Assembly: GCA_001664505.1 (NCBI GenBank)
Contig: CP011806.1
Coordinates: 2,317,661 to 2,361,147, forward strand
DNA length: 43,487 nt
Source: Acidobacteria bacterium Mor1
GTDB lineage: Bacteria; Acidobacteriota; Polarisedimenticolia; Polarisedimenticolales; Polarisedimenticolaceae
Reading direction: 5' to 3'
Position numbers and translations under genes: made by a program. Positions 1,685-34,146 of this stretch are shown in pieces (within the stretch, counting starts at the first letter, position 1; every line of letters starts with the position of its first letter). The notes below the pieces were generated by a model. It had not been told where the DNA came from. It saw only the letters and a program-made list of their open reading frames with translations, and did no database searches.

Positions 1685-4600
1685 ATGCCGAGTGGTCGTA
1701 CTTCCCACGGGCGCAGCACTGTCGCGGCGCTGCTTTTCCTTCTCCTTCCGGGCCTGGCCCTGGCGCTACCCGGAGAGGTCCAGGACCTCAATTTCTCCGG
1801 CGCCGACAGCCTGGCCTGGACCGCCGCCTCCGGTGCAGCCGGGCACCACATCTACCGGGGCACCCTGAGCGGGTTGGCCGGCGGAGACGACGGGCAATGC
1901 CTGATCGGCTCGATCCCCGGCACCACGGCGACCGTCGCCGACGACCCAGCCCCCGGAACCGGCTTCTTCTACCTGGCCACCGGCTTCGACGCCGACGGCG
2001 AGGGAGCTACCGGGCCCGACAGCAACGCGGCGCCGCGTAATCCCACGGTCCCCTGTGTCCCCGCCCGGCGGCTGCTGGGCCTGACTGTCGACGGCGACCC
2101 GGGCGACGGCGTCAGCGACGGAGTCGAGCCGCTGCAGAACCCCAGCGTCTACGACCGCTCCAGCAAGCGTGAACGCGCCGGCGTGTTCCTCCACACCGGC
2201 GAGGTGTTCCTCCAGGCCACCGACCTGATGATCCCCGGCCGTGGTATCGACTGGGCCTTCCAGCGCACCTACCGCAGCCAGATCGGCTACGACGGCCCCC
2301 TGGGCAACAACTGGGACTTCCGGCTCGACAGCCGGCTGGTGCCGCTGGGTACCGACGTGCGCTACCACGACGGCACCGGACGGGACGAAATCTTCGGCCG
2401 CATCAGCGCCACCGACTTCACCTCCCCTGCCGGCCGCTACGACGTGCTGATCGAAAACCCCGACGGCTCGTTCAGCATGCGTCAGCCCGACGGCATGATC
2501 CTCGACTACCACGGTTTCGACGGCAGCAACCTGCAGGGCGTGCTCGAGTCGATCGTCGACGCCCGGGGCAACGTCATCGTGCTGCGCTACGACACCCAGG
2601 CGCTCTTGACCGAGGCGATCGACAGCCTCGGACGCTCGGTGGAGTACGACTACTACCCCGAGGGACGGCTACGGGTGGTCCGGGACCACACCGGCCGTGA
2701 GGTCGGCTTCACCTACGACCCCGAGGGCAACCTGCAGAGCGTGACGACGCCGACGGTGACCGGGACGCCCCAGGGGAACGACTTCCCCAGCGGCAAGCGG
2801 ACGACCTACACCTATTCCAGCGGCTTCGGCGACGAGTCGCTGAACCATGATCTGTTGACCGTCACGGCCCCCAACGAGCAGCCGGGCGGACCTGCTTTCT
2901 ACACCTTCACCTACAACACCGGTGGCGGCGATCCGCTGGATGTCGGCCGGGTGGAAACCTGGGTCGCGGGCGGCACCAACGGCAGCGGCGTCGCCGCAGG
3001 CGGCACCAACACCTTCTCCTACGCCTACCCGAACCCCGGCGGCAACCCGGCGGACCTGACCCTGCCCCGCCGCACCACCACCGTCAGCGACCGGGCGGGC
3101 AACGCCGGCGAGTACGTGCACAACGTCAACGGCCACTGCGTTACCGTGACCGACTTCACCAACCGCGGCGTGCGGCCTGGTGAAGGGGACTACGTCAGCA
3201 GCTACACCTACAACGCCGACGGCGAGCAGGTCGTCGCGGTCTTCCCCGAGGGGAACCGCATCGAGTACGCCTACGACTCGCCGGGCGCCGACCGCTTCCG
3301 CGAAGGCAACCTGCTGGAGATGCGCCGCATCGCCGACACCTCCGCCTCGGGCGGCCGGGGCGACGGCCGCGGCGGCGAACTGGAAGACCTGGTCTGGACC
3401 TACACCTACGAACCGGTATTCAACACCGCGAGTTCGCTCACCGAGCCCCGGGGCAACGACGCGACCTACGTGCCCCAGAACGGCGGCGCCCAGTCGGCGG
3501 CCCGCTACACCACCACCTGGACCTACGACTACCAGGAGGGAGACCGGGCGCTCAACGGAATCGCCGATCTGGCGACCCGCTGGGGCATCGACCTGACCGG
3601 CCTGACCGACCTGCTCGGAGACCTCAACGGAGACAGCCTGACCGATCAGGCGGTGGGCAACCGGGTGCGCCGCACCGACCCGCCGGTGCTCCTCGATCCG
3701 GCCTCGTTCCAGGCGGGGATCGAGGGGGACACGAGCCAGGATGTGGTCAGCCTGTTCCGCTACAACGGCTTCGGCCAGATGATCGGCCAGACCGACCCCG
3801 AAGGTAACGAAGACACCCTGATCTACCACCCCGAGAACGATCCCGACGGCGACGGCAACACCACGCCTGCTCCCGCCGACGGCCGTGTGCTCGACACGAG
3901 CGACGGCGGCTACCAGGCGGCGCATCTGTTCGACGTCGCCTCGGATCCGATTCGCAACAACGGCACCGACCCGGCGCCGGCGAATATCCGCCACGACTGG
4001 CTCTACGACTCGGTCGGCAATGTGGTGCGTCTGGTCGACGGCCGCGGCATCGCCACCGCCTTCGTCTGGAACGAACTGAACCAGGAGGTCGAGCGCCGCA
4101 CCGCCGCCGCCACCTCCGACGCGGCGGGCAGCATCGCCGACACCCCCACCGGACGGGGTGAGACCGGGCTGACCCCCTTCGCCTACATCACCCGTACTTC
4201 CTATGACGCCAACGACAACGTGGTGCGCATCGATATCGAGGACCGGGGAGGCGACCGGGATGTCGGCGGCTTCGCCGAGAGCGTCTACGAGTACGACATC
4301 CTCGATCAGGTGATCCGGGAAACCCGGGAGGTTTCGACCACCGAGGACATCGTCACCGAGTTCCGCTACGACGCCAACGAGAACATGGTGCGGACCGTCG
4401 CCCCCGAGGGGAACGAGACCACCACCGAGTACGACGAACGGGACCTGCTCTACAGCACCACCCGCGGCGCCTCAGGCCCCCGGGGCGGCACCCCGGCGGT
4501 AACCTTCCACTTCGTCGACGGCAACGAGAACGTCGTGCGCATCGACGATGCCCTGGGCAACCCCACCGACTACATCTTCGACGGCTACGACCGGCTGGTG

Positions 4601-7600
4601 ACCGAGATCGACCAGGTCGGCAACACCAAGGACTACCAGTACGATCCCGCCGGCAACAAGGTGCGTGAGGAGTTCCGTGGCCCGGTAGGCGGCCCGACGC
4701 CTGCGACTCGCAGCGGCGCGACCAACGTCGACCTGCACATCATCGATTTCGGCTACGACGAACTGAACCGGCTGTTCGGCCAGGCTCAGGAGCTGTTCCT
4801 GCCCGTCGGCGCGACCACCGTCAACCCGCCGATCCTGTTCGAAGGCCCGGCGGCCCCCGGTGACGGATTCATCAATACGATCTACGAATACGACCGGGCC
4901 TCGCGCAAGACGTTCAGCGTCGAGGACAGCGGCGCGGTCTACCGTTTCGAATACGACGGCGTCGACCGCCCCATCGTCAAGGTGCTGCCCGACGACAGCC
5001 CGACGATCCTGACCTACGACGCCAACAACAACCTGATCGAGACCGAGGAGGTCGAACTGGCCTCGAAGCCGGGACCGCCCGACGAGGTGTTCTTCACCAC
5101 CTACTTCTTCGACGCCCTGGACCGGCAGGTCCGCGCCGTCGACAACCAGGGACTGACCCACGAGCGGGAATACGACAGCCTGAGCGGCCTGCGCGCCGCC
5201 TCCGACGCCAACGGCCCCGCCGGCGGGACGATCAACCGCCGCTCGCCGGGGAACACCGGCATCGTGGTCCCGGTCAACGCCCCGGGTAACGTGACCCACT
5301 ACACCTACGACGGCCTCGACCGGCTGACCGTCACGTCGACGCTGCTGACCCCCAGCGGCCTGGGTGACGGCACCTTCAGCCCGGCGCTGGACCTGACCAA
5401 CCCGGCCAACCCCGACGGCGAACTGACGGTGATCGTCGACTGGGACGGCAACAGCCTGCGTCTGTCGGAAACCGACGACAAGGGGGATGTCACCACCTAC
5501 ACCTACGACAACCTCGACCGCAAGGTGCTGACGACCCACGATGACGGAACCACCCGGGCCTACGTCTACGACGCGGTGGACAACGTCATCGAGGAAACCG
5601 ACCCCAACGGCACCGTGGTGACCCAGGTCTTCGACGACGCCTGGCGCCTGACCGACCGCACCAACGTCCCCGCCACCGGGGTGGTCGGCACCTCGAGCCA
5701 GACCTACGAGTACGACGGCCTGAGCCGGCCGACTTTCGGCTTCGACGACAACACCACCGACAGCGACGACGACGTGACCATCACCCGGGTCTACGATTCG
5801 CTCTCCCGGATGATCGAGGAGACCCAGTCGATCTCCGACGGCTCCGCAGATCAGACCACCAGCTACGGCTACCAGGCCGAGGACCAGAAGGTGGAGATGA
5901 TCTACCCCGGCGGACGCCAGGTCTCCTACTTCTTCGACCCCGCCGGCCGCGTCGAGACCGTGGTCGACAGCTCCGGCAGCGAATCGGCGGACTACGAGTA
6001 CTTCGGCATGTCCCGGGTCCACACCCGGATCTACGCCAACGGCGTGCGGTCGACCCAGCTCGACGATCCGGGCACCGCCGATATCGGCTACGACGGCTCT
6101 CGCCGCACCGTGGTCTACCGGCACCTGGAAGCCGGCGGCGGCCTGCTGTCGGGCTTCGACGCGACCCACGATCGCAACGGCAACCGCACCTCGGTGATCC
6201 GGCTCCACGACCCGGCCGGTCCCGACAACGAGGGCCAGCTCCACACCTTCGACTCGGCCAACCGGCTGACCGGCTACCTCGAGGGCCCGCTGGACTTCGG
6301 CCGCAACCCGACGGGACCGCCGGTGGACGACCAGCAGTTCGTCTACGACGGCAACGACAACGTGGTCCAGATCGACCGCAACGGGCAGTCCTTCGGATCC
6401 AGCCCGAGCAACATGAACGAGTACGACGAGGTGCAGGCGGGCGGCGGCCGTGTCGATGACGGCGTGGCCGACGACTTCCTCGACGACCTGGCCACCGGCG
6501 CCGCCGACGGCCGCAACCTGACCCATGACCGCAACGGCAACCTGACCCATAACGGCGAGAAGTTCTTCGAGTACGACTTCCGCGACCGGCTGGTCAACAT
6601 TCTCGACGCCGGCATGAGCATCCAGACCGTCAACACCTACGATGCCTTCGACCGCCGGGTCGAGCGGGAGAACCCGGGCGGCGGCGGCCCCGAGCCGTAC
6701 ATCCGCATCCTGTGGGCCGATCCCGATCCGCTCAACGCCGCGGCCTACGAGATCGAGGAACAGGACGATCAGGGCAACACGATCCGCGAGGTGGTCTTCG
6801 GGCTCGATCCCGACGAGCGCCTGTGGCAGGTCAACATGTTCGGCGATCCCCAGTACTTCCTGGAAGACGACATCAACAACGTCGTCGCGCTGATCGACGC
6901 CCAGAACCCCCAGAACATCCTCGAGCGCTACACCTACGACGCCTTCGGCAAGCCCCAGATCGAGAACCAGAACAACCAGCCGGTGTTCGACGGCGGCGGC
7001 AACTACCTGCCGTTCAGCTCGTTCCAGAATGTCAACCTGTTCCAGGGTTGGCGCTACGAGCCGGAGTCGGGCAACCGCACCAGCAGCCTCAACAGCGACT
7101 GGGGCGGCATGTACTACCTGGACTCGGCGCTGTTCCTCGATCCGAACCTGGGGCGGATGATCACGCGGACCGCCAACTTCAACCCCTACGCCTTCGCCAT
7201 GAACAACCCGGTCAGCCTCGGCCTGTGGTTGATCGCCGATCCGGTGATGGAAACCGGGCTCGACGTGGCCGAGAGTCTCGGCGAGAAGGCGCTGGAGACC
7301 GCTTCCGGCCTGGAGAACATGGGCATCGACGGCGAGACGATCTCCGCGGGCAACGACGCCACCAGCGCCTTCGGCTGGGGGCTGACGGTCTTCGAACACG
7401 CCACCCAGGCGGGAGGCAAGGTCCTGTTCGAGACCGCCAAGCAGTCGGCCCGGGCGGACCTGGTGCGCCAGGGCCTGACCGCCGGCCAGGCGCTGCAGAA
7501 GGGCGCCCAGGCGGGCCAGACCACGACCAAGCTGATCCAGGGCGCCAACACCGCCCAGCGGATGTCCAACGTGGCCTCCAACGCCGGCACCGCCATGTGG

Positions 7601-7945
7601 GTCGCCGGCGCCACGGCGGAAATCGTCGACACCGGCCAGAAGCTGCAGAAAGAGGTCGACAACCTCGACCGGGAGCTGGAGAAGAGCGCCGCGATCAGCG
7701 ACAAGTTCTCCAAGCGCAACTACGAGAACTACAAGGAAGGCCGCATCGACAAGGAAACCTACAAGGCCAACCAGAAGCGGATCAACGATGCGAACCGCGA
7801 ACGGAACGAAGCCAAAGCACAATCGGCGCGCGCGAACGCGATCTACAACACGGTTGAGGGCGGCCTGAAGGCGCTGGAGAAGGCGACACCGGTGCCGGTG
7901 GTCAAGACGGTCAAGTCCATCTGCCGCTGGCTCGGCTGGATGTAG
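1685..7945 (+). CDS. Secreted RHS/YD-repeat protein
   Basis: About 2086 residues. A Sec signal peptide (cleavage near ALA|LPG, residue 27) is followed by a beta-sandwich domain (about 29-118, with SLAWTAASG and GFFYLATGFDADGEG), a DUF6531-like domain (about 170-215, 'TDLMIPGRGIDWAFQRTYRS'), then many YD repeats (for example VYEYD, FRYDAN, YIFDGYDRL, YTYDGLDRL) to about 1700. The RHS-associated core spans about 1740-1848 (RYTYDAFGK, MYYLDSALFLDPNLGRMI, NPYAFAMNNPV). Such repeats fold into a hollow beta-shell that encloses a C-terminal payload. The last 240 residues are Ala/Gly-rich, then charged and helical; I do not recognise a toxin. The usual DPxGL cleavage signature after the core is absent. 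ATG 1685 is preferred to ATG 1679 because the GAGGA site is too close to the latter. Confidence 0.92.
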   Translation: MPSGRTSHGRSTVAALLFLLLPGLALALPGEVQDLNFSGADSLAWTAASGAAGHHIYRGTLSGLAGGDDGQCLIGSIPGTTATVADDPAPGTGFFYLATGFDADGEGATGPDSNAAPRNPTVPCVPARRLLGLTVDGDPGDGVSDGVEPLQNPSVYDRSSKRERAGVFLHTGEVFLQATDLMIPGRGIDWAFQRTYRSQIGYDGPLGNNWDFRLDSRLVPLGTDVRYHDGTGRDEIFGRISATDFTSPAGRYDVLIENPDGSFSMRQPDGMILDYHGFDGSNLQGVLESIVDARGNVIVLRYDTQALLTEAIDSLGRSVEYDYYPEGRLRVVRDHTGREVGFTYDPEGNLQSVTTPTVTGTPQGNDFPSGKRTTYTYSSGFGDESLNHDLLTVTAPNEQPGGPAFYTFTYNTGGGDPLDVGRVETWVAGGTNGSGVAAGGTNTFSYAYPNPGGNPADLTLPRRTTTVSDRAGNAGEYVHNVNGHCVTVTDFTNRGVRPGEGDYVSSYTYNADGEQVVAVFPEGNRIEYAYDSPGADRFREGNLLEMRRIADTSASGGRGDGRGGELEDLVWTYTYEPVFNTASSLTEPRGNDATYVPQNGGAQSAARYTTTWTYDYQEGDRALNGIADLATRWGIDLTGLTDLLGDLNGDSLTDQAVGNRVRRTDPPVLLDPASFQAGIEGDTSQDVVSLFRYNGFGQMIGQTDPEGNEDTLIYHPENDPDGDGNTTPAPADGRVLDTSDGGYQAAHLFDVASDPIRNNGTDPAPANIRHDWLYDSVGNVVRLVDGRGIATAFVWNELNQEVERRTAAATSDAAGSIADTPTGRGETGLTPFAYITRTSYDANDNVVRIDIEDRGGDRDVGGFAESVYEYDILDQVIRETREVSTTEDIVTEFRYDANENMVRTVAPEGNETTTEYDERDLLYSTTRGASGPRGGTPAVTFHFVDGNENVVRIDDALGNPTDYIFDGYDRLVTEIDQVGNTKDYQYDPAGNKVREEFRGPVGGPTPATRSGATNVDLHIIDFGYDELNRLFGQAQELFLPVGATTVNPPILFEGPAAPGDGFINTIYEYDRASRKTFSVEDSGAVYRFEYDGVDRPIVKVLPDDSPTILTYDANNNLIETEEVELASKPGPPDEVFFTTYFFDALDRQVRAVDNQGLTHEREYDSLSGLRAASDANGPAGGTINRRSPGNTGIVVPVNAPGNVTHYTYDGLDRLTVTSTLLTPSGLGDGTFSPALDLTNPANPDGELTVIVDWDGNSLRLSETDDKGDVTTYTYDNLDRKVLTTHDDGTTRAYVYDAVDNVIEETDPNGTVVTQVFDDAWRLTDRTNVPATGVVGTSSQTYEYDGLSRPTFGFDDNTTDSDDDVTITRVYDSLSRMIEETQSISDGSADQTTSYGYQAEDQKVEMIYPGGRQVSYFFDPAGRVETVVDSSGSESADYEYFGMSRVHTRIYANGVRSTQLDDPGTADIGYDGSRRTVVYRHLEAGGGLLSGFDATHDRNGNRTSVIRLHDPAGPDNEGQLHTFDSANRLTGYLEGPLDFGRNPTGPPVDDQQFVYDGNDNVVQIDRNGQSFGSSPSNMNEYDEVQAGGGRVDDGVADDFLDDLATGAADGRNLTHDRNGNLTHNGEKFFEYDFRDRLVNILDAGMSIQTVNTYDAFDRRVERENPGGGGPEPYIRILWADPDPLNAAAYEIEEQDDQGNTIREVVFGLDPDERLWQVNMFGDPQYFLEDDINNVVALIDAQNPQNILERYTYDAFGKPQIENQNNQPVFDGGGNYLPFSSFQNVNLFQGWRYEPESGNRTSSLNSDWGGMYYLDSALFLDPNLGRMITRTANFNPYAFAMNNPVSLGLWLIADPVMETGLDVAESLGEKALETASGLENMGIDGETISAGNDATSAFGWGLTVFEHATQAGGKVLFETAKQSARADLVRQGLTAGQALQKGAQAGQTTTKLIQGANTAQRMSNVASNAGTAMWVAGATAEIVDTGQKLQKEVDNLDRELEKSAAISDKFSKRNYENYKEGRIDKETYKANQKRINDANRERNEAKAQSARANAIYNTVEGGLKALEKATPVPVVKTVKSICRWLGWM

Positions 7946-7979
7946 ATCAACAACTGATCGATGCCCTTGGGCATGGGAG

Positions 7980-8011
7980 GGGCGGCGTCACCGGGCGCCG
8001 CCCTTTCTTTT
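7980..8011 (+). terminator. Rho-independent terminator after the RHS gene
   Basis: GGGCGGCG (7980-7987) pairs perfectly with CGCCGCCC (7996-8003) around an eight-base loop, followed by the T-rich run TTTCTTTT (8004-8011). The T-run lies on the plus-strand side only, so it terminates the RHS transcript 34 bases after its stop and separates it from the convergent sigma-factor gene. No immunity gene could be co-transcribed downstream. Confidence 0.85.
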
Positions 8012-8030
8012 CGGGAAGAACCGCCGGGGC

Positions 8031-8747
8031 CTAGTCCCCGCGGAACACCGTCATCAGGTGGCGCACCTCGGCGTCGACCTGATCGTCCTGTTCCACGGTC
8101 AGCGAGACCTCGTCCCGCAGGATTCCGCCGAAGCGCTTGCGCATTCGGGAGACGCTCATCTTGACGGCGGATGCCGTGCTCTCCAGCTCGCCGGCGACCT
8201 CTTCGTACTCGCTCCCCTGCCCACCCGAGAGAAAGCGGGCAAGCAACCGGTAGTGATCCGGTTTGCCCGCCTGCTCCAGCTCCTCCCGCAGCCGGCGATG
8301 GGCCCGCTGGATGATCGCCCGGGCCCACTGGCGCTCGTACTCCCGGTCGGGGGTGCGTTCGTGGCGGGGCTCCAGCCGGAAACGGGCTTCGGCCTGCTCC
8401 GCATCGAGCGACAGCTGGGCCTGTCCCCCGCCCCGTTTGAGGGCTGCGGCATCCCGGCGGCGATTGGCCATGAAGTGCTTGATCGAACTGAGCAGGAAGG
8501 AACGGAAGCGGCCGGCCTCCTGGCGCACATTCTGCAAGTAGTCCGCCTCGAGCAGGCGCAGGAAATAGCCCTGGGTAATGTCCCGGGCCTCCTGGGCGTC
8601 GTGTCCGGAGCGCCGGACGAAGACGTAGAGCGGGTACCAGTAGGTCTCGCAGAGGCGGGCCAGGGCGTCCTCGGAGCCGGGAGCCTCCCGGGCTCGGGCC
8701 GCCAGGACCACGGTCCAGCGGGTCGTCGTGAACTGGGCGTCGGCCAT
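8031..8747 (-). CDS. ECF-type RNA polymerase sigma factor
   Basis: 238 residues with sigma region 2 ('YWYPLYVFVRRSGHDAQEAR' followed by DITQGYFLRLL, about 35-70), which contacts core RNA polymerase and the -10 box, and a C-terminal helix-turn-helix region 4 ('EVAGELESTASAVKMSVSRM', about 190-210) for the -35 box. The N-terminal 'TTRWTVVLAA' is typical of an ECF group expanded in Acidobacteria and Planctomycetes, where it often sits near Ser/Thr kinases; no anti-sigma factor or kinase is adjacent here. ATG at 8745-8747 is chosen, though a TTG 18 bases upstream is possible and neither has a clear ribosome-binding site. Confidence 0.9.
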   Translation of the reverse strand: MADAQFTTTRWTVVLAARAREAPGSEDALARLCETYWYPLYVFVRRSGHDAQEARDITQGYFLRLLEADYLQNVRQEAGRFRSFLLSSIKHFMANRRRDAAALKRGGGQAQLSLDAEQAEARFRLEPRHERTPDREYERQWARAIIQRAHRRLREELEQAGKPDHYRLLARFLSGGQGSEYEEVAGELESTASAVKMSVSRMRKRFGGILRDEVSLTVEQDDQVDAEVRHLMTVFRGD

Positions 8748-8843
8748 TACGGCGGCATCGTACAACTTCGCCGCAACACCGGCCCAATCGCGGGCACCGG
8801 GATCGTCAGCCAGGTGACGATTTCGTTCTCGGAGGTTGGCAGC

Positions 8844-9797
8844 ATGACAAAAGCACCGCTTCCCTCAAGTTCTCTCGTCCGGCGCCGAAGAATGGGACGT
8901 ACCCCGAGTGAGGAGATCTGGATACCCATGGAACCCGCGGTCACGCCTGAAGAAGATCTGTCCCCTCTCGACCTGCTTCGCGCCGAACTGGAGCAGCAGA
9001 TCAAGGATGGGACCCTGCAGTTGCCCCTGTTGCCCAACGTGGCTCAGGAAGTGCTGCAGCTCTGCTCCGACGACGACACCGACGCGTCGGACCTGTCCGA
9101 TCTGATCCACCGGGATCAGGCGCTGGCCAGCCACGTGCTGCGTATCGCCAACTCGCCGGCCTACATGGCCCGCACCGAGATCACCTCGCTGCGCCAGGCG
9201 GTGGCCCGGCTGGGCACGGCGGCGATCTCCGAGATCGCCCTGGCGATCTCGCTGCGCGGCGAGATCTTCGACGTTCCCGGGTACCAGAAGGACATCACCT
9301 ACATCTGGCGCCACTCGCTGGGAAGCGCCCTGTGGGGCAAGACCATCGGGCGAGAGCTGGACAAGGAAGCCGAGACCGCCTTCCTCTGCGGACTACTGCA
9401 CCACATCGGCAAGCCGATCGTGCTGCACTCGATGATCAAGCTGAGCCGCGCCAAGGAGATGGAGATCAAGGTCGCCGACATGCGGGCCATGATCGATTTC
9501 CACCACACCGGCGTGGGAATCCTGGTCGCCGACGCCTGGCGGCTGCCGCTGCCCGTCGCCGCCGCCATCGCGCACTACTACAGCTACGAGGATTGCGAGG
9601 AGTACGCGGACCTGGCGATGGTGACCCACTGCGCCGACCTGCTGGCGACCCATCTGCTGGACCCGGGCGTGATGCCCGAGGAGCGGGTGCGGGCCAGCCC
9701 GGTGATCACCGACCTGCACATCAGCGACGACCAGCTCGACGAGCTCTTCGCCCGCCGGGAGGAGATCAACGAGTGGGTCGAGTCGATGGTGATCTGA
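8844..9797 (+). CDS. HDOD-domain protein
   Basis: 317 residues. After a 50-residue basic/acidic N-terminus, an HDOD domain begins at about residue 60 (LPLLPNVAQEVLQLCSDD, then 'LSDLIHRDQALASHVLRIAN' and 'ITSLRQAVARLG'). HDOD domains are degenerate HD phosphohydrolase folds found in bacterial signalling, usually as output or scaffold domains. The family's GLLHDIGK motif reads GLLHHIGK here, so the metal-binding Asp of true HD enzymes is lost. Start ATG 8844 has GGAGG at 8831-8835 with an eight-base spacer; the frame open upstream is antisense to the sigma factor and not credible. Divergently arranged with the sigma-factor gene. Confidence 0.88.
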   Translation: MTKAPLPSSSLVRRRRMGRTPSEEIWIPMEPAVTPEEDLSPLDLLRAELEQQIKDGTLQLPLLPNVAQEVLQLCSDDDTDASDLSDLIHRDQALASHVLRIANSPAYMARTEITSLRQAVARLGTAAISEIALAISLRGEIFDVPGYQKDITYIWRHSLGSALWGKTIGRELDKEAETAFLCGLLHHIGKPIVLHSMIKLSRAKEMEIKVADMRAMIDFHHTGVGILVADAWRLPLPVAAAIAHYYSYEDCEEYADLAMVTHCADLLATHLLDPGVMPEERVRASPVITDLHISDDQLDELFARREEINEWVESMVI

Positions 9798-9862
9798 CCG
9801 CCTCGTAGCCCCGCACCGACCGGCCCGATTCGACCCGAAGGCGGAGTCTCGACAGATCGCGA

Positions 9863-9868
9863 TATGAT
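9863..9868 (+). promoter_or_regulatory. -10 element for the ABC-F gene
   Basis: TATGAT, one mismatch from consensus, with a predicted transcript start near 9875, about 27-42 bases before the two candidate GTG starts. No good -35 box is visible. The same hexamer occurs before the Lon-N and M1-like peptidase genes. Confidence 0.45.
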
Positions 9869-9901
9869 GACGCTCGCGCCTCTTCCGGCGCCCAGACTCG
9901 T

Positions 9902-11746
9902 GTGTCGGAAAGCGTCGTGCCATCCCCGAGCCTTCTCAGCTGCCAGCAGATCTCGAAGACCTTCGGGCTGACCGAGCTCTTTCGCGACCTGTCCTTCACC
10001 CTCCACGAGGAGGAGCGGGTCGGCCTCGTCGGCCCCAACGGCGTGGGCAAGTCGACTTTACTCAAGATCCTCGCCGGCCAGGAGGTTCCCGACGACGGTG
10101 AAGTCGTGCGGCGCAAGGGGCTGAAGCTGGCCTACGTGCCCCAGCGAGCGGAGTTCCCCGCCGGCCGGCGGGCGCTCCAGATCGTCGAGGAGGCGCTGGC
10201 CGTCGATCCCGAGCTGGATGAGACCGAGCGGACCACCCGGGCCCGCACGGCGCTGACCCGCACCGGCTTCCGCGATCCCGAGGTCTCCGTCGATACCCTG
10301 TCCGGCGGCTGGCGGGCCCGATTGGCTATCGCCCGGGCAGTGGCCAGCGCCCCCGACCTGCTGCTCCTGGATGAGCCGACCAACCACCTGGACCTGGAAT
10401 CGATCCTCTGGCTCGAGGACTGGCTGGGCCGGCAGGTCAGCTCGTACATGGTGATCAGTCACGATCGTTTCTTCCTGCAGAACGTGACCAATAGGATGAT
10501 CGAGGTCGACAAGGCCTACCCCGACGGGTTTCTGTCGGTCGCCGGCAGCTACGCCGATCTGCTCGAAGCCCGGGAGGCCACGCTGACCCGGCTCGCCGCC
10601 GAGGAAGAGTCCCTGGCCAACCATGTGCGGCGGGAGGTCGAATGGCTGCGACGGGGCCCCAAGGCGCGAACAACGAAGTCCAAGTCGCGGATCGACGCCG
10701 CGGAGCAGAGCATCGAAGCGCTGCGGGAGAGCCGGGAGCGCAGCCGGATCGAGCGGACGGCGGGTATCGAGTTGGCCTCGTCGGGGCGCAAGACCAAGCG
10801 CCTCTGGTGGTGCGACGGAGTCAGCAAGGGCTACGACGGCACGCCGGTGATTCGCGATCTCGAGCTGCTGCTGACGCCCGGACGTCGCGTGGGGGTGCTG
10901 GGCGCCAACGGTAGCGGCAAGACGACCTTGCTGAAGCTGATCGCCGGCGAGCTGGAGCCGGACAGCGGGCGCATCCGCACAGCGGACGACCTGCGGGTGG
11001 TGCACTTCGACCAGCATCGGGGCGGCTTCGATCCGGAGATCTCCCTGCGCCGCACCCTGGCCCCCGACGGCGACAGCGTGCTCCACCAGGGGCGCTCGCT
11101 GCACGTGGCCAGTTGGGCCAAGCGCTTCCTGTTCCGGCCGGACCAGCTGGAGCTACCGGTAGGAAGACTCTCGGGCGGCGAGCGGGCGCGGATCGCCCTG
11201 GCCAACACCATGCTCAAGCCCGCCGATCTGTTGATCCTCGACGAGCCGACCAACGATCTCGACATCCCGACCCTGGACGTGCTGGAGCAGTCGCTGCTGG
11301 AGTTCCCCGGCGCGCTTGTGCTGGTGACCCACGATCGCCACCTGATCGACCGGGTCTCGACGGAGTTGCTGGCCTTCGACGGCCACGGCGGCACCGAGAC
11401 CTACGCCGACTACGCCCAGTGGGAGAGCGCCTGGCGAGCGGCGCAGAAGGCCAAGAAGAAGGCCGAAGCGGCCAAACTCGCAGCCGCGAAACCGGCGGCG
11501 CCGCGGCCGGCAAAGAAGGCCAAGCTCTCGTACATGGAAAAGCGGGAGTTCGAGGCGATGGAGGCCAAGATCCTCGAAGCCGAGGAAGCGCTGGAGGCCG
11601 CCACCGCCGCCGCCGAGGACCCGGCGATCGCTGCGGACGCGACGGCGCTTCAGGCTAGAATCGAGGAGAGAGCGGCGGCCCAGGAAGCCGTCGACACCCT
11701 CTACGCCCGCTGGGCCGAGCTGGAAGCCAAGCAGAACGGCTCCTGA
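9902..11746 (+). CDS. uup: ABC-F ATPase, Uup-type
   Basis: About 614 residues with two ABC ATPase domains and no membrane segments. Domain 1: Walker A GPNGVGKST (44-52), signature LSGGWRARLAIA, Walker B LLLLDEPTNHLD. The linker (about 220-290) is charged and helical, as in the P-site tRNA interaction motif. Domain 2: GANGSGKTT, LSGGERARIALA, LLILDEPTNDLD. A basic Ala/Lys-rich tail is followed by a coiled-coil C-terminal domain beginning KLSYMEKREFEAMEAKI, which distinguishes Uup from EttA. ABC-F proteins act on ribosomes; Uup also influences precise excision and branched DNA in E. coli. GTG 9902 or GTG 9917 could start it; 9917 has GGAAAG five bases upstream. Confidence 0.9.
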   Translation: MSESVVPSPSLLSCQQISKTFGLTELFRDLSFTLHEEERVGLVGPNGVGKSTLLKILAGQEVPDDGEVVRRKGLKLAYVPQRAEFPAGRRALQIVEEALAVDPELDETERTTRARTALTRTGFRDPEVSVDTLSGGWRARLAIARAVASAPDLLLLDEPTNHLDLESILWLEDWLGRQVSSYMVISHDRFFLQNVTNRMIEVDKAYPDGFLSVAGSYADLLEAREATLTRLAAEEESLANHVRREVEWLRRGPKARTTKSKSRIDAAEQSIEALRESRERSRIERTAGIELASSGRKTKRLWWCDGVSKGYDGTPVIRDLELLLTPGRRVGVLGANGSGKTTLLKLIAGELEPDSGRIRTADDLRVVHFDQHRGGFDPEISLRRTLAPDGDSVLHQGRSLHVASWAKRFLFRPDQLELPVGRLSGGERARIALANTMLKPADLLILDEPTNDLDIPTLDVLEQSLLEFPGALVLVTHDRHLIDRVSTELLAFDGHGGTETYADYAQWESAWRAAQKAKKKAEAAKLAAAKPAAPRPAKKAKLSYMEKREFEAMEAKILEAEEALEAATAAAEDPAIAADATALQARIEERAAAQEAVDTLYARWAELEAKQNGS

Positions 11747-25292: not shown

Positions 25293-26282
25293 CTATCCGC
25301 CGATCTGGTGCATCGTGCGCGCCAGGGGCAGCGCCGCCTGCTTCTCCACGATCTCGAGGGCTCCGCCGCGGGTCTTGCGCGAGAGCGCCTCGACCACCTG
25401 CTCGCGCAGGCTCTCGTCCGAGGCCCCGGCGCGCATCGGCGTCTTGAGGTCGACCTCGTTGTTGTCGTAGATGCAGACCCGGAAGTGGCCGTCGCTGGTC
25501 AGCCGCAGACGAGAGCAGTTGCTGCAGAAAGGCGCGGTCACCGAGTTGATGAAGCCGACGGCACCGGCGCCGTCCGTGAACAGGTAGCGGGTTGCCGGAG
25601 CGTGGGGATCCCCCGCCGGGTCGGGCGTCAGCGGCCAACGGGCCTCGATGCGCTCCCGCACCTTGTCCCCGCTCAACACCCGGGCCGGGTCCCAGCTCCC
25701 GTTGCTCAGCGGCATGAACTCGATGAAGCGCACCTCGTAGCCTTCGCGGCGGCTGCGCTCGACGATCTCCTCGACCTCGTCGTCGTTGACTCCGGGCATC
25801 AGCACCGTGTTGATCTTGATCCGCTCGAATCCCGCGTCCCGGGCCGCGACGAGGCCGGCCAGCACCCGGTCGAGTTGATCCCGCCGGGTAAGCTCGGCGA
25901 AACGGTCGGCGCGGAAGGTGTCCAGGCTGACGTTGAGCCGCCGCAGCCCGGCCCGGCGCAGCGGCTCGGCCAGGCGATCGAGCAACACGCCGTTGGTCGT
26001 CAGCGAGAGATCCTCGACTCCGTCGATGGCGGCGAGCATGCCGACCAGGGACTCGATGCCCGAGCGCACCAGCGGTTCTCCGCCGGTAATGCGTACCTTG
26101 CGCACTCCGTCGGCAACCAGGAGCCGCACGAGGCGCTCGATCTCCTCGAACGAGAGGATCCGCTCCCGGGGGAACCACTCGGGCTCCTCCGGCATGCAGT
26201 AGGCGCAGCGGAGATTGCAACGGTCGGTGACCGAGACGCGCAGATCATCGTGCTGACGGCCGAATCCGTCGACCAGGGCCAT
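25293..26282 (-). CDS. moaA: GTP 3',8-cyclase MoaA
   Basis: 329 residues. The radical-SAM cluster motif CNLRCAYC gives C22, C26 and C29, preceded by LRVSVTDRC, typical for MoaA. VRITGGEPLVRSG is the SAM-binding GGEP region. The C-terminal second [4Fe-4S] cluster is formed by CSNCSRLRLTSDGHFRVC, and the protein ends in GG, the double glycine needed for the catalytic pocket. MoaA converts GTP to 3',8-cyclo-GTP, the first step of molybdopterin synthesis. No other moa genes are in view apart from a CinA-like MoCF-fold protein at 34745. GGAGG precedes the ATG. Confidence 0.95.
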   Translation of the reverse strand: MALVDGFGRQHDDLRVSVTDRCNLRCAYCMPEEPEWFPRERILSFEEIERLVRLLVADGVRKVRITGGEPLVRSGIESLVGMLAAIDGVEDLSLTTNGVLLDRLAEPLRRAGLRRLNVSLDTFRADRFAELTRRDQLDRVLAGLVAARDAGFERIKINTVLMPGVNDDEVEEIVERSRREGYEVRFIEFMPLSNGSWDPARVLSGDKVRERIEARWPLTPDPAGDPHAPATRYLFTDGAGAVGFINSVTAPFCSNCSRLRLTSDGHFRVCIYDNNEVDLKTPMRAGASDESLREQVVEALSRKTRGGALEIVEKQAALPLARTMHQIGG

Positions 26283-31132: not shown

Positions 31133-31156
31133 GATCACCTGGGAGAGATGGACCCG

Positions 31157-31951
<795 letters not shown>

Positions 31952-31971
31952 GCCGGGGCCCAGACACACGA

Positions 31972-32017
31972 ACGCACCGCCAACGGGGCGCTTCGGCGCC
32001 TCGTTTCTGCGGTGCGT
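31972..32017. terminator. Nested convergent hairpin with UUCG tetraloop
   Basis: Between converging genes. The inner stem AACGGGGCGC (31982-31991) pairs with GCGCCTCGTT (31996-32005, one G-T wobble) around TTCG, giving the very stable cUUCGg tetraloop on the plus strand. The outer arms ACGCACCGC (31972-31980) and GCGGTGCGT (32009-32017) pair perfectly. It lies 20 bases after the LOG stop and 28 bases after the peptide-gene stop, so it can end both transcripts. T-runs are short, so part of its role may be to protect RNA 3' ends. Confidence 0.7.
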
Positions 32018-32045
32018 GCCGTTCTACTGGACTGGACTAACGGAG

Positions 32046-32225
32046 CTAGCGGGAGCCGCGGCGGGAAGAACCGCCACCGAAACCGGCGCCACCGTACGGG
32101 TCCATCGAAGCACCAAGATCGGGTCCGCCGCTCGGGCCGGCCATGGCCGGTCCAATCGACTCGAGGATCTCGCGCCCTTCCAGGCTAACGATCGTAGGCT
32201 TCTCGTACGTCATCAGTTCGGACAT
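32046..32225 (-). CDS. 59-residue RiPP-precursor-like peptide
   Basis: A small peptide in two parts. The N-terminal half (MSELMTYEKPTIVSLEGREI then LESIGPAMAG) is leader-like: Y-x-x-P followed by a hydrophobic and acidic segment is the pattern that PqqD-type recognition domains bind in lasso and radical-SAM peptide precursors. The C-terminal half is Gly/Ser/Pro-rich with no Cys (PSGGPDLGASMDPYGGAGFG, then GGSSRRGSR), a plausible core. GAGG six bases before ATG 32225, a promoter upstream and a hairpin downstream show a complete unit of transcription. No maturase, protease or transporter of such pathways is in the window, so the assignment is tentative; it could be a short Gly-rich protein of another type. 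Confidence 0.62.
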   Translation of the reverse strand: MSELMTYEKPTIVSLEGREILESIGPAMAGPSGGPDLGASMDPYGGAGFGGGSSRRGSR

Positions 32226-32262
32226 CACTTTCCTCAGAACAGTAGGGGGCTGAATCGCAGTC

Positions 32263-32291
32263 AGATTACGCTGCGTGAACCGGCCCGTCAA
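32263..32291 (-). promoter_or_regulatory. Sigma-70-like promoter of the 59-residue peptide gene
   Basis: On the minus strand TTGACG (32286-32291, five of six) is separated by exactly 17 bases from TAATCT (32263-32268). Predicted start near 32256, leaving a leader of about 31 bases that includes the GAGG site. Region 32226-32535 is otherwise non-coding on both strands and richer in A+T (with a run of T near 32404-32412); the lytic transglycosylase promoter must also lie here but I could not place it. Confidence 0.6.
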
Positions 32292-32535
32292 GGCGGTATT
32301 TTGGCAGAACGACAACAAAATGCCGCATCGACGTATCACCTGATCCGGAAAACGCCGCCGCTGTAGCCATTTGGCATCCTGGACAGAATTACTCGGTTAT
32401 TTTACTTTTTTTCGCAAAGTCGGCCTTGTTCAGGCCTTCCGGGCTTTCATTCATTTGCGCCGGTGGAAAAAACGTCGGAGGATGGATGCAGGGATGCCGT
32501 GGCGGCGGACCGAGTCCGGAATCGGGGTGGAACAG

Positions 32536-34146
32536 ATGATTCGACGGTCCGTCGCGGTGGTGCTGCTATTGACCGCCTGGCTCGCTGCCGGCCAGGCCCT
32601 CGCCGAAGACGGACCCTTCCCCCGGGTCGAGGCCATCGAGGCCAACGTCGATTTCTGGGAAGACGTGTTCGGCACCTGGAGCATGGGCCAGGTGGTGGTC
32701 CATGACGTCCGCTACCCCGGCCTGCGCTACGAGGTCGCCACCCTCCCCGGCAAGGTCTCCGACCGCTACACCGATCGCCAGCGGGAGTTCATTGACTTTC
32801 TCAACGAGGCGTGGGAGAAGAAGCTGCGCCGCCTCGAGGACAAGGTCCGCCGTGGACGGCGCCTGAGCGCCGGCGACCGGGAACTGGTCCAGCGGATCCG
32901 GGCCCACGGAGGTGAGAACGGGCTGAAGGGCGCCCACGAACGGATCCGCAGTCAACGCGGTCTGCGGGAACGCTTCCGCCGGGGCCTCGAGATCAGCGGC
33001 CGCTACGACACCGCCCTGCGCAAGATCTTCCGCGACCGGGGCCTGCCCGAAGACCTGGCCTACCTGCCCCACGTCGAGTCCTCGTTCCAGGCCCGGGCAC
33101 GCTCCAGCGCCGGAGCGGTCGGTGTCTGGCAGTTCACCCGGGGCACCGGACGCCAGTACATGAGGATCAACAGCGCCATCGACGAACGGCTCGACCCGAT
33201 CGTCGCCGGCGAGGCGGCGGCCCGCTACCTGGGGAACGCCCACGACAAGCTGAACAACTGGGCGCTCGCCATCACCTCGTACAACCATGGCGTCGCCGGC
33301 ATGCAGCGGGCGGTGCGGGCCCACGGCCGGGACTTCGGCAAGATCTACAAGAACTACCGCTCCCGCACCTTCGGCTTCGCCTCGAGAAACTTCTACGCCG
33401 AGTTCCTGGCGGCCCGCCGCCTGGCCCGCGACCCCGACGAGAGGTTCCCGGGCCTGCGCCGTGAGGCGCCGATGAACCTGCGCCGGGTGCGACTGGAACA
33501 TCCGGTGAGTCCGGGCGGGCTGGCCCGGGGCTGGGGCGTTCCGCTGCGCGAACTCGCCGCGGTCAACCCCGCCTGGTCCTCCCGCGCCCTGGATCGCGGC
33601 CTGCCGATCCCGGCCGGAACCCGGGTCTGGATCCCGGCCTCCGCCGGCGACCGGGCGCTGACCATGCCCGCGGCGGAGACGGTCTACGTGGTCCGGCGCG
33701 GCGACACCCTGTCGGAGATCGCCGAACGCCACGGCATGAGCCTGAGCCAGCTACGCACCATCAACCGGGTGCGGGGCAACAAGATCCTCGTCGGCCAGAA
33801 ACTAAGGGTTCAGGGTGGTGGTGCCGCCGCCCCGCTGATTCACGTGGTGCGGCGGGGCGAAAACCTGACGCTGATCGCCAAACGCTACGGCCTGAGCCTG
33901 GGCGAACTGCGCCGGCTCAACGGGATCAAGGACCGGCGCGGCCGGATCCACCCCGGGCAGAAGCTCCAGGTGAGCGGCAGCCTTCCCGGGCGGATCGAGC
34001 ATCACGTGGTCAAGCGTGGCGAGAGCCTGATCAAGATCGCCTCGGCCTACGGGGTGCGCCTCGGCGACCTGCTGCGCCACAACAAGCTCTCCCGGCGCTC
34101 GGTGATCCACCCGGGCCAGAAGATCCGCATCCCGGCGAACCGCTAG
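32536..34146 (+). CDS. Membrane-bound lytic transglycosylase with LysM repeats (MltD-like)
   Basis: 536 residues. ATG 32536 gives a clean signal peptide (MIRRSVAVVLLLTAWLAAGQALA); the frame is open upstream but starts there would place basic residues before it. The transglycosylase domain (about 145-290) has the catalytic Glu in LPHVESSF, followed by SSAGAVGVWQFTRGTGRQY and NWALAITSYNHGVAGM, as in MltD family 1. A degenerate LysM at about 320-375 is followed by three clear LysM domains (VYVVRRGDTLSEIAERHG, IHVVRRGENLTLIAKRYG, HHVVKRGESLIKIASAYG). It cleaves peptidoglycan glycan strands non-hydrolytically in the periplasm. No lipobox is seen. Confidence 0.92.
   Translation: MIRRSVAVVLLLTAWLAAGQALAEDGPFPRVEAIEANVDFWEDVFGTWSMGQVVVHDVRYPGLRYEVATLPGKVSDRYTDRQREFIDFLNEAWEKKLRRLEDKVRRGRRLSAGDRELVQRIRAHGGENGLKGAHERIRSQRGLRERFRRGLEISGRYDTALRKIFRDRGLPEDLAYLPHVESSFQARARSSAGAVGVWQFTRGTGRQYMRINSAIDERLDPIVAGEAAARYLGNAHDKLNNWALAITSYNHGVAGMQRAVRAHGRDFGKIYKNYRSRTFGFASRNFYAEFLAARRLARDPDERFPGLRREAPMNLRRVRLEHPVSPGGLARGWGVPLRELAAVNPAWSSRALDRGLPIPAGTRVWIPASAGDRALTMPAAETVYVVRRGDTLSEIAERHGMSLSQLRTINRVRGNKILVGQKLRVQGGGAAAPLIHVVRRGENLTLIAKRYGLSLGELRRLNGIKDRRGRIHPGQKLQVSGSLPGRIEHHVVKRGESLIKIASAYGVRLGDLLRHNKLSRRSVIHPGQKIRIPANR

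Follow-up and report, generated by a model that had tools for sequence, protein, structure and literature searches.

The window examined here, the whole 43,487-nucleotide stretch of DNA that was analyzed, spans bases 2317661-2361147 of the single-contig genome G000. It contains a 59-residue minus-strand open reading frame at 32225..32046, which translates to MSELMTYEKPTIVSLEGREILESIGPAMAGPSGGPDLGASMDPYGGAGFGGGSSRRGSR; with its stop codon the gene occupies 32046..32225. A Shine-Dalgarno sequence, GAGGAA (32230-32235, minus strand), stands 4 nt 5' of the ATG, and both the frame and its ribosome-binding site are exactly those given in the initial annotation. A longer, GTG-started reading of 97 amino acids is not supported; the homologues begin at or near the ATG. 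The GC fractions at the three codon positions are 0.63, 0.60, and 0.73. Residues 1-27 (32145..32225, minus strand) form the leader, with the pattern Y7-x-x-P10-x-I12 followed by I/L-G25-P26-A27, as supported by a 25-sequence alignment and pN/pS values. Residues 28-59 (32049..32144, minus strand) form a variable C-terminal segment, the putative core, which is rich in Gly, Ser, Pro, and Arg and contains no Cys.

The gene had been described as a stand-alone transcription unit, and the elements cited for this are present but weaker than stated. A promoter-like TTGACG-17-TAATCT arrangement of putative function (-35 at 32286-32291 and -10 at 32263-32268, minus strand) ends 37 nt before the ATG; its -35 box agrees with the consensus at five of six positions and its -10 box at only three, so that the promoter is no more than suggestive. 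On the other side, a hairpin at 31958..32032 (minus strand) may be a shared terminator or end structure. The surrounding region (31955-32048) folds at -46.2 kcal/mol compared with -31.8 +/- 3.4 kcal/mol in shuffled sequences (z = -4.2). Because the hairpin lies between convergent genes and has no U-run, the label "terminator" is not supported.

Two plus-strand genes outside the proposed pathway flank the peptide gene. One encodes a LOG-family (lysine decarboxylase-like) protein (31148..31951), which is the same neighbor in G003, G004, and G006, and the other an MltD-type SLT/LysM protein (32371..34146), which is the same neighbor in G001, G003, G004, and G005. Across the family and order of the host, a shared housekeeping set of LOG-family, MoaA, LPG-synthase-like membrane protein, NhaD, ClC, FIST, MltD, and CinA genes is kept around the peptide in G001, G003, G004, G005, G006, and G009. 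The moaA gene at 25293, already regarded as housekeeping, belongs to this syntenic set, and, in agreement with the initial annotation, nothing in the window matures the peptide. No maturase was found at the conserved LOG-family/MltD locus across the order either. Since the same maturase-free synteny extends through family and order, the orphan position is old and does not reflect a recent break.

A peptide family with a conserved leader

Neither Pfam nor NCBIfam gave a significant match for the peptide or for any of ten relatives. When 60 related genomes were searched with the single sequence, other genera gave matches at E-values of 7.1e-7, 6.9e-6, and 1.3e-4; these were short open reading frames that are alike in their N-terminal halves and differ in their C-terminal halves. 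With a profile, the family was detected in 21 of the 41 genomes of the host's class (Acidobacteriota), and the E-values split cleanly into those below 2e-10 and those of at least 0.02. Most of these relatives are draft metagenome-assembled genomes, and among the compared class genomes all except G000 and G037 are fragmented. A second match within G000 (position 4420433, E = 5.5e-4) fell in a 308-residue frame without the motif and disappeared with a better profile. A separate related-locus search found no relative with the peptide alone and seven named Acidobacteria loci with the f5 alignment; L042 (G001:C23) was discarded as a false match.

An ungapped leader, YxxPx[IV]...LxxxGPAxA, is common to all homologues; the tail behind it is short and variable. 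The 25 aligned leaders keep a fixed spacing from Tyr to GPA, with P10 and G25 invariant and Y7, P26, and A27 conserved at 90% or more; YxxPx[V/L/I] is present in every member, allowing for one Trp in place of Tyr and one Met at the hydrophobic position. Tails range from 11 to 37 residues and have a mean pairwise identity of 27%, compared with 43% for the leader. A GPxGGPDL stretch is common to the window peptide and the G031:C191 peptide, and G003, G004, G009, and G031 each carry two to four divergent copies. No Ser or Thr after GPA is conserved among the members, and the peptides of G003:C7 and G011 have none there, so that one common phospho-acceptor is not evident.

Over the segment from Tyr to GPA, pN/pS in three congeneric pairs is 0.00/0.49 (G001/G005), 0.11/0.71, and 0.06/0.47. 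The leader is under purifying selection, including in relatives with the orphan arrangement; as G001 and G005 share that arrangement with the window, the orphan form itself is selected. Cross-genus matches, fixed leader spacing, and pN far below pS make this a real gene and more than a chance frame. The earlier proposal of a leader-core precursor is borne out in that the leader fits YxxPx[L/V/I], the motif that discrete PqqD-type proteins recognize, and the tail varies. The two sequence checks named in advance as able to refute it came out in its favor: the YxxP leader is conserved among homologues, and none of these is a piece of a longer protein.

Probable partner genes in other genomes and in the host

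In ten genomes of family f5, a PqqD-domain open reading frame lies 112-267 nt from the peptide gene, and the pair adjoins TadA, DnaX, and Wza-type genes on those contigs that are long enough to show them; the f5 kinase is unlinked from the peptide and stands next to an RNase E/G gene (by inspection). Operons of peptide, PqqD, and HprK-like kinase occur at L037, L089, L087, and L090. In G031:C191 the peptide gene precedes an HprK-like kinase gene and then PqqD, with a nucleotidyltransferase-like protein alongside (by inspection); G024 has the arrangement peptide, PqqD, kinase. Outside the class, G055 and G129 carry a related peptide followed by a PqqD-radical SAM fusion, an HprK-like kinase, and a C25 peptidase. 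Gene calls in these comparisons came from a simple script, and some neighbors were named by inspection.

Several further loci bear on the range of such arrangements. Linear polyphosphorylated peptides (LPP; LppA/LppB/LppK/LppS/LppN) were described in Bacillota by Popov et al. 2026 (PMC13381572). An operon at L108 (G016:C28, 2171-8944), from which the G016 peptide is apart, encodes a PqqD protein, an HprK-like kinase, a C25 peptidase, and an SpI-like/NTP_transf_5 (PF14907) fusion protein, adding a C25 peptidase to the enzymes typical of LPP. At L147 (G009:C59, 5991-7142), a kinase sits at a polysaccharide locus with no PqqD adjacent; a genome-wide search of G009 found no PqqD match, although two peptides and the kinase are present. 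A divergent YxxP peptide without GPA, YQSPTVRTYTDDRLRRELDLGKAVQDLPPKNA, adjoins the kinase gene at L148 (G020:C177, 5574-5771). In another family of the phylum, L109 (G097:C245, about 628-1009) holds a variant peptide, YEPPQVTTYSEDQVLKELGDAKALTAFDPLSPNY, with GDA for GPA, beside a PqqD gene, which suggests a wider YxxP-LGxA superfamily. L165 (G011:C174, 4628-6790) groups a YxxP peptide (ERYEVPRLEQVAIDPATFAGAYGVELPLPGG...), a P-loop protein, an S26-like peptidase, and a PqqD protein near polysaccharide chain-length genes, possibly a second LPP-like cluster in Acidobacteriota. In about a dozen class genomes, matches to archaeal-type signal peptidase-like proteins (TIGR02228) occur a few kb from PqqD genes, suggesting that SpI-PqqD systems are common in the host's class.

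G000 has three PqqD loci, L092, L093, and L094. The first is a polysaccharide-export locus in a DnaX/TadA neighborhood, with genes for a PqqD-type recognition protein (L092_9, G000:C1:4623905-4624105), an HprK-like P-loop kinase (L092_10, G000:C1:4624180-4625307), a sugar transferase, and Wza; its PqqD-kinase pair lies about 2.27 Mb from the peptide gene. L092 is the syntenic counterpart of the f5 TadA/DnaX/Wza locus that holds peptide and PqqD. The G031 operon also points to L092, because its kinase matches L092_10 at 37% over 377 residues (with only a short local match to L094_8) and its PqqD protein matches L092_9 at 50% over 76 residues. As G000 has two further PqqD proteins, in L093 and L094, the choice of partner rests on orthology and co-occurrence.

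The remaining loci have features of their own. L093 (G000:C1:894000-912000, 2915-9075) contains a PqqD protein and a radical SAM/SPASM enzyme, then a 1482-residue C25 (PorU-like) peptidase; PqqD-radical SAM pairs of this type are conserved in many class genomes, and no precursor was identified beside L093. The HPr-rel-A system (TIGR04352 HprK_rel_A, TIGR04353 PqqD_rel_X) is a cassette of a PqqD protein and an HprK-like kinase. L094 (G000:C1:3013000-3031000, 8478-11165) carries it in full, with PqqD_rel_X at 66.6 bits, HprK_rel_A at 280 bits, and a nucleotidyltransferase-like protein. The cassette is preceded by a 123-residue protein with a twin-arginine-like stretch, which could be its substrate. 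For an SpI-like peptidase, G000 yields a single match, below cut-off (34.6 vs 51.85 bits) and beside secA, and no convincing leader peptidase.

Across the class, the kinase is found in 20 of 21 peptide-positive genomes and 2 of 20 peptide-negative ones (Fisher, 1.7e-8). Shuffles within families reached the observed association 52 times in 20000 (about 0.003), and within f3, f5, and f12 genomes vary jointly for the two genes. The one genome with peptide and no kinase match, G017, has a completeness of 80%, and both genes are present in its congener G020; in G008 and G029 the kinase is present and the peptide was not found. Adjacency and co-occurrence together link peptide, PqqD protein, and kinase.

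The predicted chemistry of the L092 proteins is in keeping with this linkage. A profile of the kinase matches the HprK structure 1ko7 (2.8e-9), and its AlphaFold model (pLDDT 89.9) has HprK/P as top Foldseek match (1e-4); the TM-scores are low, since the match is confined to the P-loop core. Fifteen homologues all retain His92, the P-loop residues Gly115 and Lys116, and the pair Asp133 and Asp134, which line up with the corresponding HprK motifs. The PqqD profile matches lasso B1 proteins and LppB (9x8z, 5.1e-6). In LppB, N33 and D70 hold the leader Pro and Tyr (PMC13381572), and the residues aligned to them are invariant in eight PqqD proteins. These features would fit leader binding and phosphorylation, both predicted.

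Proposed pathway and rival explanations

We propose that the gene product is a RiPP-type precursor whose leader, YxxPxI...LExIGPA, would be bound in trans by the discrete PqqD-type protein of L092. The neighboring HprK-like kinase, encoded in the exopolysaccharide synthesis and export locus, would then modify the bound precursor, most likely by phosphorylating a hydroxyl residue in the Ser-rich tail, and the modified precursor may be cleaved after the GPA region, exported, and used in a polysaccharide-linked role. The logic would be that of the Bacillota LPP, with an Acidobacteriota host and dispersed parts. We consider it probable that the window encodes a RiPP precursor of LPP-like type and that the PqqD/HprK-like kinase pair modifies it in trans, probably by phosphorylation. 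The suggestion in the initial annotation of an orphan precursor modified in trans is thus largely upheld: the gene is an orphan with probable partners at G000:C1:4.62 Mb, and the modification itself is what we infer.

A different enzyme could act on the same leader. The peptide might be a substrate of the PqqD and radical SAM/SPASM proteins of L093, 0.90 Mb along the chromosome, receiving a crosslink or other modification before the C25 peptidase acts. The G055 and G129 operons, where a family peptide directly precedes a PqqD-radical SAM fusion, speak for this, as do the PqqD-radical SAM-C25 locus of G000 and the leader-binding Asn and Asp that L093_7 retains (by inspection). The radical SAM enzyme, scored as a control at E below 1e-90, is however common without the peptide (10 of 20 genomes, vs 15 of 21 with it) and missing from several peptide-positive genomes, and across the 41 class genomes the co-occurrence test found no association with the peptide. 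It was never seen adjoining the peptide within the class, and the core of the window peptide lacks Cys; we regard this assignment as unlikely. We think it similarly improbable that the peptide is a small regulator or adaptor of the polysaccharide machinery, bound by PqqD and switched by the kinase with neither leader removal nor export. Vertical, nearly single-copy inheritance with synteny over an order would suit such a role, as would the position of kinase and PqqD in a polysaccharide locus and the lack of an identified dedicated peptidase or transporter for G000. Against it, a conserved leader joined to a freely varying tail of 11-37 residues is the pattern of a precursor, divergent copies coexist in G003, G004, G009, and G031, and the related G016 operon has SpI-like and nucleotidyltransferase domains, as LPP clusters do.

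Two other readings are very improbable. The YxxPx[IV] motif and a PqqD/B1-like partner would also fit a lasso peptide precursor with unlinked cyclase and B2 protease, but PF13471 (the B2 transglutaminase-like protease) has no match in G000, and no peptide-positive genome has one above cut-off; it occurs in three genomes, none of which carries the peptide. The 25 members show neither a penultimate leader Thr nor a ring Asp/Glu at fixed position, and the lasso reading is largely refuted. No macrolactam cyclase (asparagine synthetase-like) was seen beside the PqqD loci. The short frame, weak -10 box, and low-complexity tail might instead indicate a chance frame or decayed remnant. For the family as a whole this is refuted: the leader is under purifying selection and its spacing is fixed, synteny is conserved, and 21 genomes have intact copies.

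The preferred reading, a precursor modified in trans by the L092 pair, implies that a peptide pathway known from Bacillota appears, with dispersed genes, in a phylum new to it. The pairings differ by family: peptide with PqqD and kinase elsewhere, PqqD with kinase and peptide elsewhere, or all three together. A more speculative extension, which we offer tentatively and hold to be rather doubtful, is a stably inherited, scattered phosphopeptide pathway whose precursor, PqqD protein, and kinase are co-kept despite being paired differently in each family, and which would be a fixed component of exopolysaccharide synthesis or export and not a mobile secondary metabolite. RiPP mining tools seek precursors next to their enzymes, and for that reason would miss this family. 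The case shows in practice how synteny and co-occurrence can be used to match an orphan precursor with unlinked partners.

Comparison with known systems

PqqD-dependent radical SAM RiPP systems (GeoRSP, mycofactocin, and SCM types) share PqqD recognition with the proposed pathway, and G055 and G129 have a family peptide ahead of a fused PqqD-radical SAM gene; unlike in those systems, no radical SAM enzyme is tied to the peptide within the class by position or co-occurrence. L092 resembles HPr-rel-A in combining a PqqD protein with an HprK-like kinase, but its pair falls below both cut-offs (TIGR04352, 45.8 vs 200 bits; TIGR04353, 27.7 vs 35 bits) and has no adjacent nucleotidyltransferase; its kinase is only weakly like the named families. 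The true G000 member is L094 at 3.02 Mb, which alone reaches the cut-offs and is unlinked to the peptide. We found no literature on "HPr-rel-A", or on HprK, PqqD, and lasso together, in the open PMC library. The lasso peptides paeninodin and pseudomycoidin have a YxxP/WxxP leader, a B1 recognition protein, and an HprK-like kinase in common with the system considered here, and their tailoring kinase acts on a precursor Ser (PMC9266682). They differ in having a B2 protease and a lasso leader and ring signature.

The closest known kind is LPP. Shared features are a YxxPx[V/I] leader with a variable tail, a discrete PqqD-type recognition protein whose leader-binding groove has the conserved Asn and Asp and an HprK-like kinase (both unlinked from the peptide in G000), the absence of a lasso B2 protease from G000, and the location of kinase and PqqD inside a polysaccharide locus. 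The related G016 kinase operon additionally encodes the SpI-like peptidase/NTP_transf_5 fusion. The second half of the leader reads LxxxGPAxA here and HQxIxFETxxS in LPP; in the window's order the precursor gene lies apart from those for the recognition protein and the kinase, whereas LPP genes are clustered; and G000 has no clear SpI partner, whereas LPP clusters have an SpI peptidase and an NTP transferase. The Ser at core position 3, the LPP phosphorylation site, is not conserved here. As neither the LPP leader consensus nor this core Ser is found, we do not claim LPP membership. Nor does "new class", as first proposed, seem apt, since the parts match described LPP and paeninodin-type tailoring (PMC13381572), even though leader details and gene arrangement differ. 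LPP and paeninodins were said to be restricted to Bacillota, and their clusters also occur in capsule loci (PMC13381572). The present family, from an Acidobacteriota host, extends LPP-like HprK-kinase peptide pathways past Bacillota and independently repeats their association with polysaccharide loci, the meaning of which can now be tested in a second phylum.
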